Below are positions 10,092-24,710 of a stretch of DNA of 64,000 nt, piece by piece. Both the position numbers and the translations under genes were made by a program. The stretch spans positions 496,001 through 560,000 of the forward strand of contig NZ_WQLV01000001.1 in assembly GCF_009753675.1 (NCBI RefSeq), read 5' to 3'. The stretch is from Parasedimentitalea huanghaiensis. Its GTDB lineage: Bacteria > Pseudomonadota > Alphaproteobacteria > Rhodobacterales > Rhodobacteraceae. Numbering within the stretch: the stretch's first letter is position 1; the number at the start of each line of letters is the position of its first letter. Below the pieces are notes generated by a model. The model did no database searches. It was not told the DNA's origin and saw nothing but the letters and a program-made list of their open reading frames with translations.

Positions 10092-10625
10092 CTAAAATCG
10101 AAACGACGCGCGCAGGGACAAGGAATTCGAACGCATCATGCCGCCATTCTCCAATCCATCGACTTCCTGATGCAGAATTTCACCACCAACCCGCAGGTTT
10201 TGATTTAGGGAGTATGACATTCCAAAGCCGATCACCGCGCCGATATCGTCATCAAGCTCAGTTTCAGCCCGCACCCCCCCCACAGCGACATACCCCAGGG
10301 TCTGGCCAAAATCATAACCAACCCGCAGTTTTACCCGCTGCATTTCCTGGGTTTCAATACTCCCAAGTTGGATTTGGGCGCGCTCGACCTCAAGCTCACC
10401 GCCAAGAACCAACTGACCAAAATCAAGATCATACCCCAAGTGAAGTCCAGCGGCTCCGGCATCATGCCCAGTTGTACCGTCCATACTTGCATTCTGTCGG
10501 GCAATGGATGCCCCAAGAAGAAAACCGCTCCAGTCTGCGGACGTGACGGGTGTCGCGACGGCCATTGCGGTTGTCAGGCTCACAACAAGCCAGGTCAGGT
10601 TTTGAGTTTGTTTGGCAACAGGCAT
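10092..10625 (-). CDS. Small outer-membrane beta-barrel protein
   Basis: The 177-residue protein has an N-terminal signal peptide (hydrophobic stretch about residues 12-28, ending near VTSA) followed by alternating strands such as AAGLHLGYDLDFGQLVLGGE and MQRVKLRVGYDFGQTLGYVA. It ends with SLRASFRF, where the C-terminal Phe is the usual BAM recognition signal. It resembles OmpA-like or Omp25/porin-family 8-strand barrels with no C-terminal peptidoglycan domain. The specific role is unknown. The gene is leftward, convergent with the aminotransferase gene, with a long non-coding region upstream. Confidence 0.8.
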   Translation of the reverse strand: MPVAKQTQNLTWLVVSLTTAMAVATPVTSADWSGFLLGASIARQNASMDGTTGHDAGAAGLHLGYDLDFGQLVLGGELEVERAQIQLGSIETQEMQRVKLRVGYDFGQTLGYVAVGGVRAETELDDDIGAVIGFGMSYSLNQNLRVGGEILHQEVDGLENGGMMRSNSLSLRASFRF

Positions 10626-11284
10626 GTTCTTGTCTTTCTTCAGGCGCCCTTAAGCATCTGGTGTTCCCCTGCCCTCAAGTATCGCTCAAATTGCTTAACA
10701 GTTGGTTCCCCAGATGGCCTTTGGAAAAAAATCAGGTCTGCTTCAACCCTGCTTAGTTCTACAATACTAACACCCATGTCTCGGCGCGGTGGAGATCTGC
10801 CTCAACCAAGCACAAATCGAAAAAATCGTTGTGATACAACCTATTGCCCCCCCAAGAGGGTCAAAAAAACCTTTTCCCTTCGTATGCATCCACATGGCAC
10901 TGATGGCTCACCCCATTTTTTGTTAGGCCCCATCTTTGAGGTGTTTGCAAAAATGTTGATATCAGCGAACCGTTCAAAACAATTGTGCCCATGGATATCA
11001 ATGCGTTCAGGCGTGATTTGAGCTATGAACCAGGTACAGCTCCTCCTCTGCCCCAAAAACGTAATAAAGCGACGTGAAGGCATTGTATCTGATATTGGAC
11101 AAAGTCATAAATCGGATTGGACCGGCCCCCTTTTGCTGGGAAACATGGTCATCGAAAGGATAACGCCGAAAAATCCGTATGCCGACTGTAAACAGGATTC
11201 AATTGAGCGAATGCCCCCCCCCAAGACAGTGTCTCGGCAGGCGGCGCATGACATTGCAATGAATATTGACCATACCAAGAGACC
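10626..11284. other. Long AT-rich non-coding region with poly-C tracts
   Basis: These 659 bases between a barrel gene and the glycosyltransferase operon contain no ORF with gene-like features. Two similar C tracts occur: C7 at 10847-10853 and C9 at 11214-11222, each preceded by ATTG or AATG and followed by AAGA. The longer one ends 62 bases before the first glycosyltransferase start. Such tracts can slip during replication, so promoter-level phase variation is possible but unproven. Confidence 0.4.
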
Positions 11285-12151
11285 ATGAACTATCAGATGA
11301 CACACACCAATCCTCAGCAAATTCCGATCTACCTGATCAACCTCGACAACTCTCCGGAACGATTGAAGGCGTTTGAGGCTGAAACGAGCCATTTCGGATT
11401 GCAGTTCACCCGGGTTTCCGCTGTAAACTCTGCAGAGATTCCGCCAGATCAAGCAGACAACCTGCTTAGTCGGCGCTCTGGCCACTTACCGCTGGGCAAA
11501 GGTGAGATGGGATGTTTTCTTAGTCATCAAAAAGTTTGGGACCTAATCATCTCGGGCAATGACGAATGGGCGTTTGTAGCCGAAGATGACATTCACATTT
11601 CCAACCCAGATGCGTTCTTTAGCGACATGTCTTGGCTCCCTGAAGACGCCGATATCGTGAAGGCCGAGACTGCTCGGCAACTTGTAACGCTATCCATCCA
11701 GCTTCACTCAACTGTCGACGGTCATGAAATCAGGCAGTTGCAATCCTATCATGGCGGAAGTGCAGGTTATTTTGTCTCACGCACTGGCGCTCAAAAGCTG
11801 TTGGCCAGTACTCAAGACAAATGTGATGCTCTAGACCATGTTTTGTTTCACACTTGGATTGGCATTGTACAAACTTTGAAAGTCTATCAAATGGATCCGG
11901 CGATCTGTGTGCAGGACTATCTCCTGAAAGGGCTGCAAAAGAAGGGGTTTGCCAGCACTTTGAATACCGACAGAAGCACCAGCCGAAGTGAACAGGGCAT
12001 GGTTGGAAAACCCAAAGGTCTTGCGAAGCTATGGCGGGAAATCAGTCGCCCCTTTACACGCTTGCTGCGAAAATTAAGCGTCGCCATCGACAACGCGCGC
12101 GGTGTTGCAGTGATCAAATTCATTCCGTTTCACGGAGATTCCAAGCGGTGA
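11285..12151 (+). CDS. Glycosyltransferase family 25 protein (first of two)
   Basis: The 288-residue protein is a GT25 (LOS/LPS glycosyltransferase) enzyme that would transfer a sugar, often galactose, onto a surface glycan on the cytoplasmic face of the membrane. Hallmarks are IYLINLDNSPERL at residues about 14-26, the GEMGCFLSHQKVWDLI donor region (about 74-89), WAFVAEDDIHIS with the metal-binding EDD (about 96-107), and a late GGSAGYFVS (about 157-165). The sugar and acceptor are unknown. AAGAGA stands before the ATG. It is the first of three genes overlapping by 4 bases, and base composition is lower in G+C than neighbouring genes. Confidence 0.88.
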   Translation: MNYQMTHTNPQQIPIYLINLDNSPERLKAFEAETSHFGLQFTRVSAVNSAEIPPDQADNLLSRRSGHLPLGKGEMGCFLSHQKVWDLIISGNDEWAFVAEDDIHISNPDAFFSDMSWLPEDADIVKAETARQLVTLSIQLHSTVDGHEIRQLQSYHGGSAGYFVSRTGAQKLLASTQDKCDALDHVLFHTWIGIVQTLKVYQMDPAICVQDYLLKGLQKKGFASTLNTDRSTSRSEQGMVGKPKGLAKLWREISRPFTRLLRKLSVAIDNARGVAVIKFIPFHGDSKR

Positions 12152-12996
12152 TTCCACTTTATTACATCAATCTCGCCGAACAACCGTCTCGCAAGGAGTG
12201 GTTTGAAAACCAATGCGCCGAGCTCGGCATTTCCACGATACGAATAGACGCTGTTGATGGACGAAAGCTCCCTCAAGTTAAGCTTGAAGAGTTCAAAACA
12301 AAACAACGATTGAGACTTCGTTTTGGGCCTGCAGAAATTGGCTGTGCCCTGAGTCATCGCAAAGTTTGGGAAGCTTTTTGCAAGTCGGGTGAACAATGGT
12401 GCTTTGTTGCCGAGGATGATTTACATCTGGCAAAAGACAGCGCAGCCTTTTTCCAGTCGACATTCTGGATTCCAAAAGATGCCAGCCTGGTCAAAGCTGA
12501 AAGCACATTTAAGAAGTGCCACCTGGGACCCGCTGAACCTATTTTTGATGGCGAACGAACCATCCGGCGCCTTCTGAGCCTGCATGGCGGTGCTGGTGGG
12601 TATTTCATCAATCAGGATGCAGCCCAAAAAGCACTGGAAGCGACAACGCATCGCTTCGAGCCTGCAGATCACGTTCTCTTCAACCCCGAATTTGGATTCT
12701 TCGAAGACATTTCAGCCTATCAAATCGCCCCAGCTTTTGGCGCGCAAGACCTGTTCTTTGAAAACTCCATAGATGGTTTCATCAAAAGTGGGCTTGAACT
12801 GGAAAGACAAACACTGCGTAAGAGGCCAGCTGTTTCGAAAATCCTACGCGAGTTGAAGCGCCCGTTCCGCCAGGGATTGGAGGCCGCATCAAATGCCATT
12901 TATACTGCAGTACGAAAAAGCAGCTTTGTAAGCGTTCCCTATTTTTCAGCTGAACCTGGTTCCAAGCCGGAAATTCTCCGTAAGAGGTTCAAATGA
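12148..12996 (+). CDS. Glycosyltransferase family 25 protein (second of two)
   Basis: The 282-residue protein is a second GT25 enzyme, similar in every motif to the one before it: PLYYINLAEQPSRK at the N-terminus, AEIGCALSHRKVWEAF, WCFVAEDDLHLA and GGAGGYFIN. The two look like a diverged tandem duplication. The frame is open from 12031, but the GTG at 12148 is preferred since it overlaps the upstream stop (GTGA), has CGGAG upstream, and begins just before the first conserved strand. The C-terminal 60 residues are basic and may contact the membrane. Its stop overlaps the fucosyltransferase start (ATGA). Confidence 0.85.
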   Translation: MIPLYYINLAEQPSRKEWFENQCAELGISTIRIDAVDGRKLPQVKLEEFKTKQRLRLRFGPAEIGCALSHRKVWEAFCKSGEQWCFVAEDDLHLAKDSAAFFQSTFWIPKDASLVKAESTFKKCHLGPAEPIFDGERTIRRLLSLHGGAGGYFINQDAAQKALEATTHRFEPADHVLFNPEFGFFEDISAYQIAPAFGAQDLFFENSIDGFIKSGLELERQTLRKRPAVSKILRELKRPFRQGLEAASNAIYTAVRKSSFVSVPYFSAEPGSKPEILRKRFK

Positions 12997-13853
12997 TTAT
13001 TGTCAGAATTAATGGCGGTCTGGGAAACCAGATGTTCCAATATGCAGCGGCAAAAGCCCTTGCAGTTCGTTGCGGATCCAAAGTTGGTCTCGATCTGCGG
13101 GTGTTTGACGGCCCCTCTCAATTTGGTAACGCACTTAACCATTTTGACATTACAGGTATGGCCTTGCCAGAGAAGGACTTGCCGCCTCTCAGGAAGAAAA
13201 ACAAGCTTCGATACCTTATGTGGCGTTCTGGACTTGTTGGGCCCAAATTTGTTGAAGAGGAAGGTGATGGTTTCGACCCGAAGTTCTCTGGATTCACTAA
13301 AAACACCTATCTGAAAGGGTATTGGCAAAGTGAAAAATACTTTGAGGGCATATCGGACGTAATCCGTCAGGAGTTCAGCATTACGACCAAACCAAGTATC
13401 GAAAATGTCCAGTTGATGAAGGAGGTTCAGTCTTGCAACTCTGTTTCCCTTCACATTCGACGTGGCGACTATGTCAGCGACCCGCTGGCAAATGCGACCC
13501 ACGGATTGTGCTCTATGGAGTACTACACAGAATCGCTGGAACGTCTCGCAGAGAAGACAGGTACTCGACCTCAGATCTATGTGTTTTCTGATGATGCTGA
13601 ATGGGCCAAAGAAAACGCCGTTTTCAAGTACCCAACACGTGTCGTTTCCCTAAATGATGGTGCGCATCAATATGAAGACATGCGGCTAATGTCATTGTGC
13701 AAAAACAATATTATAGCAAATTCATCGTTTTCCTGGTGGGGAGCTTGGCTAAACGAGAACAGCGAGAAAATTGTCATTGCGCCTAAGCAGTGGTTCCAAG
13801 CTGCACAAAAGCACAACCGTGACATTTGTCCTGCCTCCTGGATCCGGATCTAA
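12993..13853 (+). CDS. Glycosyltransferase family 11 (alpha-1,2-fucosyltransferase-like)
   Basis: The 286-residue protein is a GT11 enzyme. The N-terminal GGLGNQMFQYAAAKALA (about residues 8-24), the nucleotide-sugar Arg motif SLHIRRGDYV (about 152-161), YVFSDDAEWAKEN and NSSFSWWGAWLNE (about 248-260) are the family's three signature blocks. Known members transfer fucose from GDP-fucose in alpha-1,2 linkage to galactose, which would fit the product of GT25 galactosyltransferases encoded just upstream; that pathway link is inference. No GDP-fucose synthesis gene is in the window. A 60-base row in it (13201-13260) has 28 G+C, compared with 39 in 27601-27660 of trpE. Confidence 0.88.
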   Translation: MIIVRINGGLGNQMFQYAAAKALAVRCGSKVGLDLRVFDGPSQFGNALNHFDITGMALPEKDLPPLRKKNKLRYLMWRSGLVGPKFVEEEGDGFDPKFSGFTKNTYLKGYWQSEKYFEGISDVIRQEFSITTKPSIENVQLMKEVQSCNSVSLHIRRGDYVSDPLANATHGLCSMEYYTESLERLAEKTGTRPQIYVFSDDAEWAKENAVFKYPTRVVSLNDGAHQYEDMRLMSLCKNNIIANSSFSWWGAWLNENSEKIVIAPKQWFQAAQKHNRDICPASWIRI

Positions 13854-20538: not shown

Positions 20539-21345
20539 ATGTCTAATCAGCTGATGGCCGGAAAACGTGGCCTCATCATGGGCCTGGCCAATAACAAATC
20601 AATCGCCTGGGGTATCGCCAAAGCCTGCGCCGACGCTGGCGCCGAACTGGCCTTTTCCTATCAGGGCGAAGCCCTGAAGAAACGCGTTGGTCCATTGGCC
20701 GCAGAATTGGGCAGTGACACTGTCCTGCCATGCGACGTCTCAGATGAAGCCTCGATTGATGAATTGTTTGCGTCGCTTGAAGCAAAATGGGGCAAGTTGG
20801 ACTTTGTCGTCCACGCGATTGGCTTTTCCGACAAGGGCGAGCTGCGCGGCCGTTATGTTGATACCAGCCGGTCGAACTTCCAGATGACCATGGATATCTC
20901 GGTCTATTCCTTCACTGCCGTTGTAAAACGCGCCGAGAAGATGATGAGTGAAGGCGGATCATTCCTGACCATGACCTATTACGGTGCTGAGCAGGTGATG
21001 CCACATTATAATGTCATGGGTGTTGCCAAGGCCGCGCTTGAAGCATCTGTCAAATACCTGGCCGAAGATCTGGGCAAGGACGGTTTGCGTGTCAACGCCA
21101 TCTCGGCTGGTCCAATTAAGACGCTGGCCGCCAGCGGCATTGGTGATTTCCGCTACATTATGAAGTGGAATGAATACAACTCTCCACTGCGTCGCAACGT
21201 GACCATCGATGACGTGGGCAAATCGGCATTGTATCTTCTGTCTGACCTCAGTTCAGGGGTGACAGGTGAAAACCTGCACGTCGATGCGGGTTATCATGTT
21301 GTAGGCATGAAGGCCGTGGACGCGCCGGATATCACCAAAGCATGA
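20539..21345 (+). CDS. fabI: Enoyl-[acyl-carrier-protein] reductase (NADH)
   Basis: The 268-residue short-chain dehydrogenase-like enzyme reduces the enoyl-ACP double bond in each cycle of fatty acid elongation. The nucleotide-binding segment is RGLIMGLANNKSIAWGIAKA (about residues 10-29). The catalytic Tyr and Lys are in YYGAEQVMPHYNVMGVAKAA, giving the YX6K spacing characteristic of FabI. The SAGPIKTLAASGI substrate loop follows. ATG 20539 is at the start of the normal N-terminus. The LysE-family gene overlaps its stop by 4 bases (ATGA). It is the only enoyl-ACP reductase in the window. Confidence 0.95.
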   Translation: MSNQLMAGKRGLIMGLANNKSIAWGIAKACADAGAELAFSYQGEALKKRVGPLAAELGSDTVLPCDVSDEASIDELFASLEAKWGKLDFVVHAIGFSDKGELRGRYVDTSRSNFQMTMDISVYSFTAVVKRAEKMMSEGGSFLTMTYYGAEQVMPHYNVMGVAKAALEASVKYLAEDLGKDGLRVNAISAGPIKTLAASGIGDFRYIMKWNEYNSPLRRNVTIDDVGKSALYLLSDLSSGVTGENLHVDAGYHVVGMKAVDAPDITKA

Positions 21346-21979: not shown

Positions 21980-22486
21980 ATGACCGATCGTTTGCCACAC
22001 GAAAAAGGCTTTCACATCTCGTGGGACCAAATCCACCGAGACAGCCGAGCCCTGGCCTGGCGACTGGATGGCCAAGGGCCAAATGACGGGGCCTGGCGCG
22101 CCGTCGTCGCAATCACTCGTGGCGGCATGGCGCCAGCCATGATTGTTGCGCGCGAGCTGGATATCCGCACCGTCGACACCATTTCAGTTCGTTCTTACCA
22201 CCATCAAGAACAGGGTGAGGCTGAGGTGTTAAAGGCACCGGATGCAGACATTATGGGGGATGCCGGCGAAGGCATTCTGATCATTGATGACCTGGTCGAT
22301 AGCGGCAAAACACTTGATCTGGTACGTAACCTGTACCCCAAGGCACATTTTGCCACCGTCTATGCCAAGCCAAAAGGCCGCCCGATGGTGCATACGTTCA
22401 TCACCGAGGTCAGCCAAGACACTTGGATCTTCTTCCCTTGGGATATGGCGCTGCAATATGTTGAGCCCTATCGTGGAACCGACTGA
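21980..22486 (+). CDS. gpt: Xanthine-guanine phosphoribosyltransferase
   Basis: The 168-residue purine salvage enzyme attaches ribose phosphate from PRPP to xanthine or guanine. The PRPP-binding loop is [17 protein letters not shown] (about residues 95-111), with the [18 protein letters not shown] flexible segment near 45-62 and the base-specific hood [15 protein letters not shown] near the C-terminus, as in E. coli Gpt. ATG 21980 is preceded by GGGGAG. It ends the fabI-lysE-gpt group and is followed by a strong terminator. Confidence 0.92.
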
Positions 22487-22504
22487 CTTTTAACTATATA
22501 TCCG

Positions 22505-22534
22505 AAAAAGCGCGTCCGATGGGCGCGTTTTTTT
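22505..22534 (+). terminator. Intrinsic terminator after gpt
   Basis: AAAAAGCGCGTCC (22505-22517) pairs with GGGCGCGTTTTTT (22521-22533) with wobble pairs and a 3-base loop, ending in a T7 run. It lies 18 bases after the gpt stop and 7 bases before the end of the convergent lactamase gene, so it can serve both strands. Confidence 0.85.
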
Positions 22535-22540
22535 GAGTTC

Positions 22541-23296
22541 TTACCTGCCATGCTCCGTGACCAACTGAAAAGTCAGTTCCAGTAGTTCTGCCCCGGCAGG
22601 TTCACCATGACCGGGAACGACCAGTGTCGCATCAGAAAACTGTTGTTGAACGGATCCAACAGCATCCCCCCAATGCATCAGATTCGCATCTGCAATGTTA
22701 CCCAACCGCTTCGCACGGGCCGAACGGATCAAGCAGCCCCCAAACAAAATCCCTGCCTCTGGAACATAAGCGACGAGGTTGTCCGCTGAGTGACCAGCGC
22801 CAGGATAGAAAACCTCTACTGGCCCAAAGTTCAACGCTTTATCATTTTGATTCAACGTTAAATCAAATTCTGCAGGCATCAGCCCACTCGCGGATGCGAT
22901 CTGATTGCTCAAAGCCAGCGCGTGCGTTTCGATGCCGCGCGCCTGAACAGCCCCAACGCCTCCCATTTTGTCGCTATGCGCATGGGTGAAAATCGCCTGC
23001 TTAACCGGATGGCCCAACTCATTGCGCGCCCAGTCCAAAATCTCAGTGGTCTGTGCATCCGTCCAGGCACTATCAATCAGGATTGAATTGGCGCCATCGA
23101 CAACAACCAATCCATTTGATGGATAGGCGCCAAATTTTTTAAACACCTTATAGCTGGTGTGCATCCATACCGTTTCAGACAGCTGCAAAAATTTGACCGG
23201 TGGAACGCGTTGCTCTGTTGAGGTGTCAGCCGTGACCGCTGATGAACCAAGGCCGAATACTGTCACAACAACACGTAGAATCTTTTTTGATATCAT
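22541..23296 (-). CDS. Subclass B1 metallo-beta-lactamase, NDM-like
   Basis: The 251-residue protein has an N-terminal signal (MISKKILRVVVTVFGLGSSA) and a zinc hydrolase domain with a full B1 ligand set: H105-A-H107-S-D109 in THAHSDKMGG, H169 in PGAGHSADN, C188 in FGGCLIRSARAKRLGN, and H230 in VVPGHGEP. The intervals 169 to 188 and 188 to 230 (19 and 42) equal those of NDM-1, and the loop after the Cys keeps the Asn used for substrate binding; the usual Lys is Arg, as VIM enzymes have Arg nearby. It should be periplasmic and hydrolyse beta-lactams; that is inferred. ATG 23296 is chosen because it starts the signal peptide; the ribosome site is weak. Two 60-base rows (22801, 23101) have only 23 G+C each, unlike flanking genes. 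Confidence 0.85.
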   Translation of the reverse strand: MISKKILRVVVTVFGLGSSAVTADTSTEQRVPPVKFLQLSETVWMHTSYKVFKKFGAYPSNGLVVVDGANSILIDSAWTDAQTTEILDWARNELGHPVKQAIFTHAHSDKMGGVGAVQARGIETHALALSNQIASASGLMPAEFDLTLNQNDKALNFGPVEVFYPGAGHSADNLVAYVPEAGILFGGCLIRSARAKRLGNIADANLMHWGDAVGSVQQQFSDATLVVPGHGEPAGAELLELTFQLVTEHGR

Positions 23297-23534
23297 TTTG
23301 TAGCACCAATTTTTGGAAAGCTTGGTCGAAAGCCATCCCAGAAAGCAAGCACTTGGCAAGTAAGCTGGCACAGCTTCGCGCATAATATAAATGTGGTATC
23401 GGACTGAGCGATTTTTCGGGCTACACGCATTTCGACTTGAGCCTCAGGTCGTCCCATCGCAGGATCGCCAAAACTTGAGGCAAGATCTAACACAGGGTCA
23501 AATGCCAGAACCAATCGCCCGACAGGACCCGCCG

Positions 23535-24710
23535 ATGTCACTCCCCCGTACTGCTGCAACTTTTATCTCGCCAATTGTCGAATCCCGGCGCTGGCTTGAA
23601 GGTGTTCACTTTTCTGCCGAGCAGCCGTTGATCAATGTCAGTCAAGCCGCCCCGATTGACCCGCCCCCCCAGGGCCTGCGTCAGGCCATTGCACAGGCCG
23701 CGCTGAATGATGACAGCGCCCATCTATATGGTCCGGTTTTGGGACGCCTTGATCTACGCACCGCCTTGGCTTCACAGATCTCAAAGCACTATGCAGCCAG
23801 ACTGACCAGCGACCAGATTGCGATCACCTCGGGATGCAATCAGGCCTTTGCCGCCGCGATCGCATCCCTGTGTGGTGAAGGCGATGAGGTCATCATTCCA
23901 ACCCCATGGTATTTCAATCACAAAATGTGGCTTGATCTGGCTGGCGTTGCGGCCTGCCCGCTCCCTGTCGGTGCCGAGATGCTACCCGATGTTCAGCACG
24001 CCGAAGCCCTGATCACGCCGCGCACGCGAGCCATTGCACTGGTGTCCCCCAACAACCCCTGTGGGACAGAATACCCTGCCCCTTTGTTGCGGGCTTTTTA
24101 CGAGTTGGCCAAATCGCGCGGCCTGAAGCTGATTCTGGACGAAACCTATCGCGATTTTGACAGCCGCACCGGCGCGCCACACGATCTGATGCAATCCGAA
24201 AGCTGGGATCACACCCTTATTCACCTCTATTCTTTTTCTAAGGCTTACCGCCTAACCGGGCACCGGGTTGGCGCAATTGCCACCTCTCCTGCCCGATTGT
24301 CCGAAATGGAGAAATTCCTGGACACCGTCACCATCTGCCCAAATCAGCTGGGTCAGATCGGCGCGCTTTGGGGCATTGAAAACTTGTCTGACTGGTTGGC
24401 CGCCGAACGGGCAGAAATTCTGGATCGCCGCGCTGCGATCCATGAAAGCTTTGGTATACTGGCTGAACGCGGCTGGAAGCTACTTGGCTGCGGCGCGTAT
24501 TTTGCCTATGTGGAGCACCCGTTTGACGCACCATCAGAACAGATCGCACGCGACCTTGTCACTCAGTCCTCGGTGCTGATGCTGCCGGGATCGATGTTCC
24601 TGCCGGTAGATGATCCGGCTGGGGAACGTCAATTCCGAATAGCCTTTGCCAATGTTGATCGGCCCGGCATCACTGAATTGTTCCATCGCTTAGCCGCAGT
24701 TCAACGCTAG
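23535..24710 (+). CDS. PLP-dependent class I/II aminotransferase
   Basis: The 391-residue protein is a fold-type I aminotransferase distinct from the one near 9 kb. It shows ITSGCNQAFAAAI (PLP phosphate region, about residues 97-109), ALVSPNNPCGTEYP (about 169-182), LDETYRDF (about 207-214), the PLP lysine in LYSFSKAYRLTGHRVGAI (about 232-249), and a late Arg in RQFRIAFANV. The reaction partner is unknown. The frame opens at 23391, but ATG 23535 (AGGA 7 bases before) gives the usual family length; ATG 23500 is a fair alternative. It is divergent from the lactamase gene across about 240 bases. Confidence 0.85.
   Translation: MSLPRTAATFISPIVESRRWLEGVHFSAEQPLINVSQAAPIDPPPQGLRQAIAQAALNDDSAHLYGPVLGRLDLRTALASQISKHYAARLTSDQIAITSGCNQAFAAAIASLCGEGDEVIIPTPWYFNHKMWLDLAGVAACPLPVGAEMLPDVQHAEALITPRTRAIALVSPNNPCGTEYPAPLLRAFYELAKSRGLKLILDETYRDFDSRTGAPHDLMQSESWDHTLIHLYSFSKAYRLTGHRVGAIATSPARLSEMEKFLDTVTICPNQLGQIGALWGIENLSDWLAAERAEILDRRAAIHESFGILAERGWKLLGCGAYFAYVEHPFDAPSEQIARDLVTQSSVLMLPGSMFLPVDDPAGERQFRIAFANVDRPGITELFHRLAAVQR

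Follow-up and report, generated by a model that had tools for sequence, protein, structure and literature searches.

A subclass B1 metallo-beta-lactamase gene at a shared chromosomal site in Parasedimentitalea

One of the questions raised by the genome of Parasedimentitalea huanghaiensis concerns a gene for a metallo-beta-lactamase (MBL) that lies between a phosphoribosyltransferase gene and an aminotransferase gene, within the 64,000-nucleotide stretch of DNA analysed here (the window, by which the whole of that stretch is meant). What kind of B1 enzyme does this gene encode, and is it a recent arrival or an established resident? The original prediction described a chromosomal, NDM-like enzyme of subclass B1 in a marine alphaproteobacterium, with signs of transfer, and saw in such genes candidate reservoirs for acquired carbapenemases. 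The reading favoured here, to which we give a probability of roughly 85%, is that of a periplasmic, probably two-zinc B1 beta-lactamase, with carbapenems among its substrates, whose gene is a long-standing Parasedimentitalea resident, likely gained once and later lost in part. The window MBL fits the published picture, as given in the available text of PMC5637372, in which NDM, FIM and VIM belong to a B1 group that is also found on the chromosomes of environmental Proteobacteria, and it names no source of any acquired enzyme.

The gene and its predicted product

The open reading frame runs uninterrupted from its ATG through 251 codons (translation of window 22541-23296, minus strand). A second, longer in-frame start at 23383 would give a protein of 280 residues; the copy in Zongyanglinia marina can be aligned from the ATG at 23296 over 251 of 251 residues. 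The leader, as read by eye, has a basic start, a hydrophobic stretch and an A-x-A type end near residues 21-23, features that make export by the Sec pathway plausible, and residues 1-27 of the predicted model have a pLDDT below 50. All six zinc ligands of subclass B1 are present (Table 1), and each of the motifs on which the original prediction had relied can be located in the translation, both those that carry ligands (HAHSD at residue 105, GAGHS at 166, GGCLI at 186 and PGHG at 228) and the DKMGG, ALSNQ and KRLGN segments (at 109, 128 and 196, respectively).

Table 1. Features of the MBL locus in the window. Residue numbers are those of the 251-residue protein, ligand names follow BBL numbering, and conservation refers to an alignment of 21 sequences, in which L022 and L025-L036 are not included.
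Feature	Position	Strand	Basis
Xanthine phosphoribosyltransferase gene, left flank	21980..22486	+	NF006613, 239.5 bits vs 138; in 7/8 genus genomes
Terminator-like hairpin after the phosphoribosyltransferase gene	22503..22535	+	RNA fold -21 kcal/mol, z -4.76
B1 metallo-beta-lactamase (MBL) gene	22541..23296	-	251 aa + stop; NF033088.2, PF00753
Zinc ligand His263 (residue 230)	22607..22609	-	nearly invariant; 1/21 rows stops short of residue 230
Arg224 (residue 191), at the anchor position for the substrate carboxylate	22724..22726	-	nearly invariant in the alignment
Zinc ligand Cys221 (residue 188)	22733..22735	-	invariant, 21 aligned sequences
Zinc ligand His196 (residue 169)	22790..22792	-	invariant, 21 aligned sequences
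HAHSD, zinc ligands His116/His118/Asp120 (residues 105, 107, 109)	22970..22984	-	invariant, 21 aligned sequences
Putative Sec signal peptide, about residues 1-23	23228..23296	-	read by eye
PLP aminotransferase gene, right flank, divergent from the MBL gene	23535..24710	+	NF005732, 539 bits vs 366; in 7/8 genus genomes

The assignment to subclass B1 is borne out at several levels. The protein passes the curated NCBI subclass B1 model NF033088.2 with 250.2 bits against a cut-off of 200 (E 1.6e-74), while Pfam places it at the superfamily level only (PF00753). At the family level it passes neither the FIM model (236 bits against a cut-off of 590) nor the NDM model (198.9 bits against 580), and no named family exceeds its own cut-off among the best 25 of 54 NCBIfam matches. 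An AlphaFold model built on the 21-sequence alignment has a mean pLDDT of 89.8 and a pTM of 0.85, and its best match in the PDB is FIM-1 (6v3q; E 4.8e-32, rmsd 1.4), followed by the MBL of Hirschia baltica (6v54; rmsd about 1.0-1.1) and then NDM; of 522 PDB matches with E up to 0.001, the best 50 all bear the title of a metallo-beta-lactamase. The predicted fold is thus that of the solved B1 enzymes. Judged on model match, ligands, predicted fold and tree placement (see below), the window protein is a subclass B1 metallo-beta-lactamase, as the original prediction had proposed.

The finer resemblance to NDM is another matter. The ligand spacings of 19 and 42 had been said to equal those of NDM-1, and the values are correct, but they recur in VIM-1 and FIM-1, which makes the spacings a sign of B1 membership and not of kinship with NDM; as an NDM signature they were discarded. 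Position 224, by comparison, does vary among these enzymes, being Arg in the window MBL and in FIM-1, Lys in NDM-1 and His in VIM-1.

Relationship to other B1 enzymes

Where, then, does the window protein stand within the subclass? A scan of the genome collection with the window MBL returned 33 loci. Within the genus the Z. marina copy is 94% identical to it and that of P. denitrificans 56% (58% over a shorter stretch). The enzymes of Pseudoteredinibacter and of a Cellvibrionaceae MAG follow at about 51%, with Henriciella at 51% and Hirschia sp. SP140 at 50%; the named enzymes range from FIM-1 at 50% through the H. baltica MBL (46%), NDM-1 (45%) and VIM-1 (41%) to IMP-1 (35%). Among the rows compared, the nearest outside the genus therefore stands at 51%. 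What is new is the lineage: the window and Z. marina enzymes apart, every compared row is at 56% identity or less. Judged on these rows and on the best 25 of the NCBIfam matches, it would probably count as a new B1 family by the 70% identity convention (PMC5637372).

The protein search and phylogeny that had been proposed with the original prediction place the protein inside B1 and outside the NDM clade. In a tree of 40 of 41 rows (L036 was left out) the three Parasedimentitalea MBLs form one clade (100/99) against 37 other B1 rows, and this clade lies not outside the subclass but inside a supported 21-row alpha- and gammaproteobacterial B1 group that holds the FIM, NDM and Hirschia enzymes (97/95). 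Within this group NDM-1 and two Pontixanthobacter enzymes form a clade of their own (100/100) to which the window protein does not belong, FIM-1 sits beside the Pseudoteredinibacter enzymes (89/86), and the Hirschia, Henriciella and Arenicella MBLs make up a separate clade (98/96). In the best tree the sister of the window clade is a Parvularculaceae MAG, at 31/52, and none of the sister groups tried is rejected, whether the NDM clade (p-AU 0.34), FIM-1 alone (0.32), FIM-1 with Pseudoteredinibacter (0.44) or the Hirschia clade (0.28); for this reason no single sister is claimed. Two further tests, which joined the window clade to NDM-1 alone (p 0.0005) and the window and Z. marina proteins to FIM-1 (p 0.010), were put aside as badly posed because they separate NDM-1 from Pontixanthobacter and the window protein from P. 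denitrificans.

On these comparisons the window MBL is no closer to NDM than it is to FIM or to the Hirschia enzymes, and it is near all of them. The special closeness to NDM that had been claimed is not supported: FIM-1 is nearer by identity, the NDM family model is not passed and the NDM clade excludes the window protein, so that "NDM-like" was dropped as a statement of family.

The nearest named enzymes help to place the protein. FIM-1 of Pseudomonas aeruginosa is the best solved match by both sequence and fold and has the same Arg224 and ligand spacings, but the window protein falls far short of the FIM cut-off and FIM-1 keeps to its own place in the tree with Pseudoteredinibacter. HBA, as the H. 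baltica MBL is called, has solved structures among the PDB matches and comes second by the same measure, yet it belongs to the separate Hirschia, Henriciella and Arenicella clade and its gene follows fabI. NDM-1 is a B1 enzyme with the same ligands and spacings; it differs in its Lys224, in having MSHS where the window protein has PGHG, and in a leader cysteine, whereas the window MBL by eye has no cysteine of the lipobox type. The structure 6v73, titled an MBL from Erythrobacter litoralis and taken here to be ElBla2, has the same fold as the window model (rmsd 1.9, 43% identity). ElBla2, from E. litoralis HTCC 2594, is likewise a chromosomal B1 enzyme of a marine alphaproteobacterium (PMC5770381), but in our tree, which does not include ElBla2 itself, NDM-1 is placed with Pontixanthobacter enzymes, which come from the family of ElBla2, and not with the window protein. 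As far as the available text of PMC5770381 goes, ElBla2 is reported to resemble NDM-1 more closely than any MBL described before it, and it hydrolyses meropenem and cefotaxime, not cefepime or nitrocefin. The same text describes its gene as neither in nor near a mobile element, with surroundings conserved in other Erythrobacter species, where its absence is read by the authors as gene loss.

The kind of enzyme is thus already published, on what the accessible parts of these papers describe, in ElBla2 (PMC5770381) and in HBA, which is listed as a B1 enzyme (PMC10740994). The tree position of the window MBL likewise matches that of the published B1-1 group. In the available text of PMC5637372, NDM, FIM, VIM and other mobile enzymes fall either within this group or within a second one, and the chromosomal hosts of B1-1 are Alpha- and Deltaproteobacteria. 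No paper on the present lineage was found in the open-licence literature, a search that did not cover the supplement of PMC5637372; nor was any found there on B1 enzymes in Rhodobacteraceae or, by title, in Roseobacter, and the titles under the genus name are without beta-lactamases. Apart from this lineage, further environmental B1 genes with 42-49% identity occur in Pacificimonas flava (L015), Pseudoteredinibacter isoporae (L012) and Arenicella (L010/L011), on different branches of the same B1 group.

Distribution, insertion site and history

The window genome belongs with Parasedimentitalea/Zongyanglinia. The MBL gene is present in three of the eight genus genomes, namely the window genome (G000), Z. 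marina DSW4-44 (G003) and P. denitrificans CY04 (G001), and the B1 model too is passed in 3 of 8. In a sample of 394 Rhodobacteraceae genomes a single one matches at E 1e-10, the window genome itself; the gene was not found in the other 393, which represent about one genome per genus and include one further member of this genus that is without it, on a first look that scored at most six candidates per genome in the rows shown. Across the Alphaproteobacteria the B1 cut-off is passed in 3 of 385 sampled genomes, window genome included. Matches at E 0.001 occur in 316 of the 385 and are mostly to the wider superfamily, because a control set matches in 13 of 14 genomes with one above the cut-off. 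B1 enzymes look rare in the Rhodobacterales genomes sampled, to which the window MBL adds a separate B1 lineage.

Such a patchy distribution (3/8 in the genus, 1/394 in the sampled family) suggests transfer at some time, and to that extent the original prediction stands; its argument from base composition is not convincing. The gene has 51.2% GC against a mean of 54.6% (sd 2.6) for 49 mechanically picked window ORFs, among which it ranks fourth lowest for GC, fifth for GC3 and tenth for codon-usage score. The two rows with 23 of 60 G+C that had been cited were not reproduced, the lowest full rows inside the gene having 26 of 60 (three rows), although the earlier row phase may differ; a row at 23260 with 19 of 60 straddles the start codon, and the lowest 60-base stretch in any phase has 20. 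The mildly low GC is thus weak evidence of transfer, and the ranks led us to reject it as strong evidence.

Elsewhere in the window, at 10368-13853, lie three ORFs that are the lowest of the 49 both in GC (47-50%) and in codon-usage score. Two encode glycosyltransferases (families 25 and 11) and one has no Pfam match. By composition, these surface-sugar genes would be a likelier foreign stretch than the B1 locus.

What does the site itself reveal? In all three carriers the MBL gene occupies the same site in the same orientation. Four other genus genomes have the empty site, where the matched parts of the flanks are 206 (G005), 227 (G007), 275 (G004) and 220 bases (G002) apart, against 1,051 bases in the window with the MBL gene included; G006, an 85% complete genome, has neither flank gene and is uninformative. 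The comparison of synteny that had been suggested thus gives three occupied sites, four empty and one uninformative out of eight, and such a pair of occupied and empty sites makes it possible to study the age of the gene's residence. In the window five bases separate the hairpin behind the phosphoribosyltransferase gene from the MBL stop codon, and by eye that gene is followed by a comparable GC-rich hairpin and T run at occupied and empty sites alike. A consensus terminator scan found one terminator-like site, which is not the hairpin at 22503..22535, and a promoter scan found none. The stretch 22300-23700 is free of inverted repeats and has a single direct repeat, an internal one of 16 bases, and none of the 15 window proteins scanned with Pfam, MBL included, has a transposase or integrase domain, in keeping with the earlier statement that no mobile element flanks the gene. 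The description as chromosomal and from a marine alphaproteobacterium also agrees with the 784-kb contig, the conserved chromosomal neighbours and the marine origin of the named relatives.

Comparison of the carriers gives a measure of residence. Between G000 and G003 the MBL gene has a dS of 0.216, inside the range of seven compared neighbours (0.10-0.29), and a dN/dS of 0.115; the gene is under purifying selection (dN/dS about 0.12), and the two values together mark it as a resident. This bears directly on whether the locus holds a recently acquired, mobile, NDM-like carbapenemase gene that is passing through the genome. The patchy presence, the slightly low GC and a sister relation to the NDM clade that the tests allow would all be in line with such a gene. 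What makes it very unlikely is that the MBL has diverged in step with its neighbours between G000 and G003, has an unremarkable codon-usage score, stands outside the well-supported NDM clade and is accompanied neither by mobile-element domains among the 15 proteins scanned nor by flanking inverted repeats. Its relatives, moreover, are not found among mobile elements: 2,709 of 72,556 plasmid records match the MBL, none of them at 60% identity or more, and no phage record matches it. The proposed role as a reservoir for acquired carbapenemases finds no backing in these plasmid records.

Long residence still leaves the number of arrivals to be considered. In the flanking-gene tree, ((G005,(G000,G003)),(G001,(G002,(G007,G004)))), with all 4 inner branches starred, the carriers G000, G003 and G001 are not a clade. 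A rooting tree of one gene with outgroups, built on 12 of 13 matches (G008 was left out), does not settle how G005, G001, G000/G003 and the remaining genomes branch from one another, and a tree constrained to make the carriers a clade is weakly rejected (p-AU 0.029). Since the carriers are not a clade, a single gain has to be followed by one loss or by two, according to where the root is placed; otherwise the site must have received a B1 gene twice. Independent arrivals of related B1 genes in the G000/G003 lineage and in that of G001 would take one step fewer than a gain and two losses under midpoint rooting of the flanking-gene tree. They would also suit the divergence between G000 and G001, where 17 of 19 window genes match the G001 stretch and none of these 17 has diverged as far as the MBL itself (56% identity; pN 0.296, pS 0.81). 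Against this, the gene would have had to arrive twice at the same site and in the same orientation, the three MBLs form one clade to the exclusion of all other B1 rows, and a resident fast gene, for a polysaccharide deacetylase, decays nearly as far (94% identity to G003 and 63% to G001, as compared with 94% and 56% for the MBL). A double arrival is therefore unlikely, and one old gain followed by losses is the likelier history. On that history the gene would have been placed behind the phosphoribosyltransferase terminator, most likely once and before the sampled carriers diverged, and would then have been lost in at least one sister lineage.

Predicted catalysis and the fabI neighbourhood

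What might the enzyme do? In solved B1 enzymes Zn1 is bound by three His residues and Zn2 by Asp120, Cys221 and His263, a hydroxide carries out the attack and residue 224 docks the carboxylate. By analogy, His116, His118 and His196 of the window protein would hold Zn1, with Asp120, Cys221 and His263 holding Zn2, such that a zinc-bound hydroxide could attack the lactam carbonyl while Arg224 docks the carboxylate of the drug, before the opened product leaves. The enzyme is probably active, to judge from its kin: 18 of 21 newly described B1 genes that were synthesised hydrolysed imipenem and 3 were inactive (Berglund et al., in the available text of PMC5637372). Could the main natural substrate instead be some other cyclic amide or lactone, with clinical beta-lactams turned over only as a side activity? 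The named relatives are marine, and so presumably live away from drug use, the gene is nonetheless kept by purifying selection, and other roles have been suggested for marine GOB-type enzymes of subclass B3 (PMC5895761, available text). But the window protein shares its ligands, Arg224 and LGN loop with FIM-1, and most of the new B1 enzymes put to the test do hydrolyse imipenem, which together make a different main substrate improbable. A B1 beta-lactamase remains the preferred reading.

Finally, there is the matter of fabI. In the Hyphomonadaceae a related B1 gene follows fabI on the same strand in 5 of 5 carriers (105 family genomes searched; loci L008, L009, L013 and L095-L099), with gaps of 6 bases in Henriciella aquimarina, 26 in Hirschia sp. 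SP140 and 5 in H. maritima, and in one carrier the enzyme matches PDB 6v54 (H. baltica) at 100% over 212 residues. From this spacing and order the two genes look like an operon, and no paper on such an operon in Hirschia was found in the open-licence literature.

The window also holds a fabI gene, which ends about 1.2 kb from the MBL gene. All six genus relatives that were checked have it, whether they carry the MBL or not, its order and strand relative to the MBL differ from the Hyphomonadaceae arrangement, and it is only 51-56% identical to the Hyphomonadaceae fabI genes, roughly as near to them as the other fabI copy of the genome. With no special identity and a gene kept where the MBL is missing, a shared neighbourhood was rejected and the proximity is treated as chance. 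A bolder and far-fetched idea is that the B1 enzymes of marine alphaproteobacteria belong to resident physiology or self-defence and are not resistance genes in transit, that Parasedimentitalea has retained its gene for as long as the genus has existed, and that the fabI link might reflect envelope or fatty-acid physiology, or else a combined protection from natural compounds that inhibit FabI and cell-wall synthesis. As a last observation, the window genome has two fabI genes, at window 20539-21345 (+) and at G000:C23:73647-74417, which are 57% identical to each other; the second is 53-55% identical to the Hyphomonadaceae genes.
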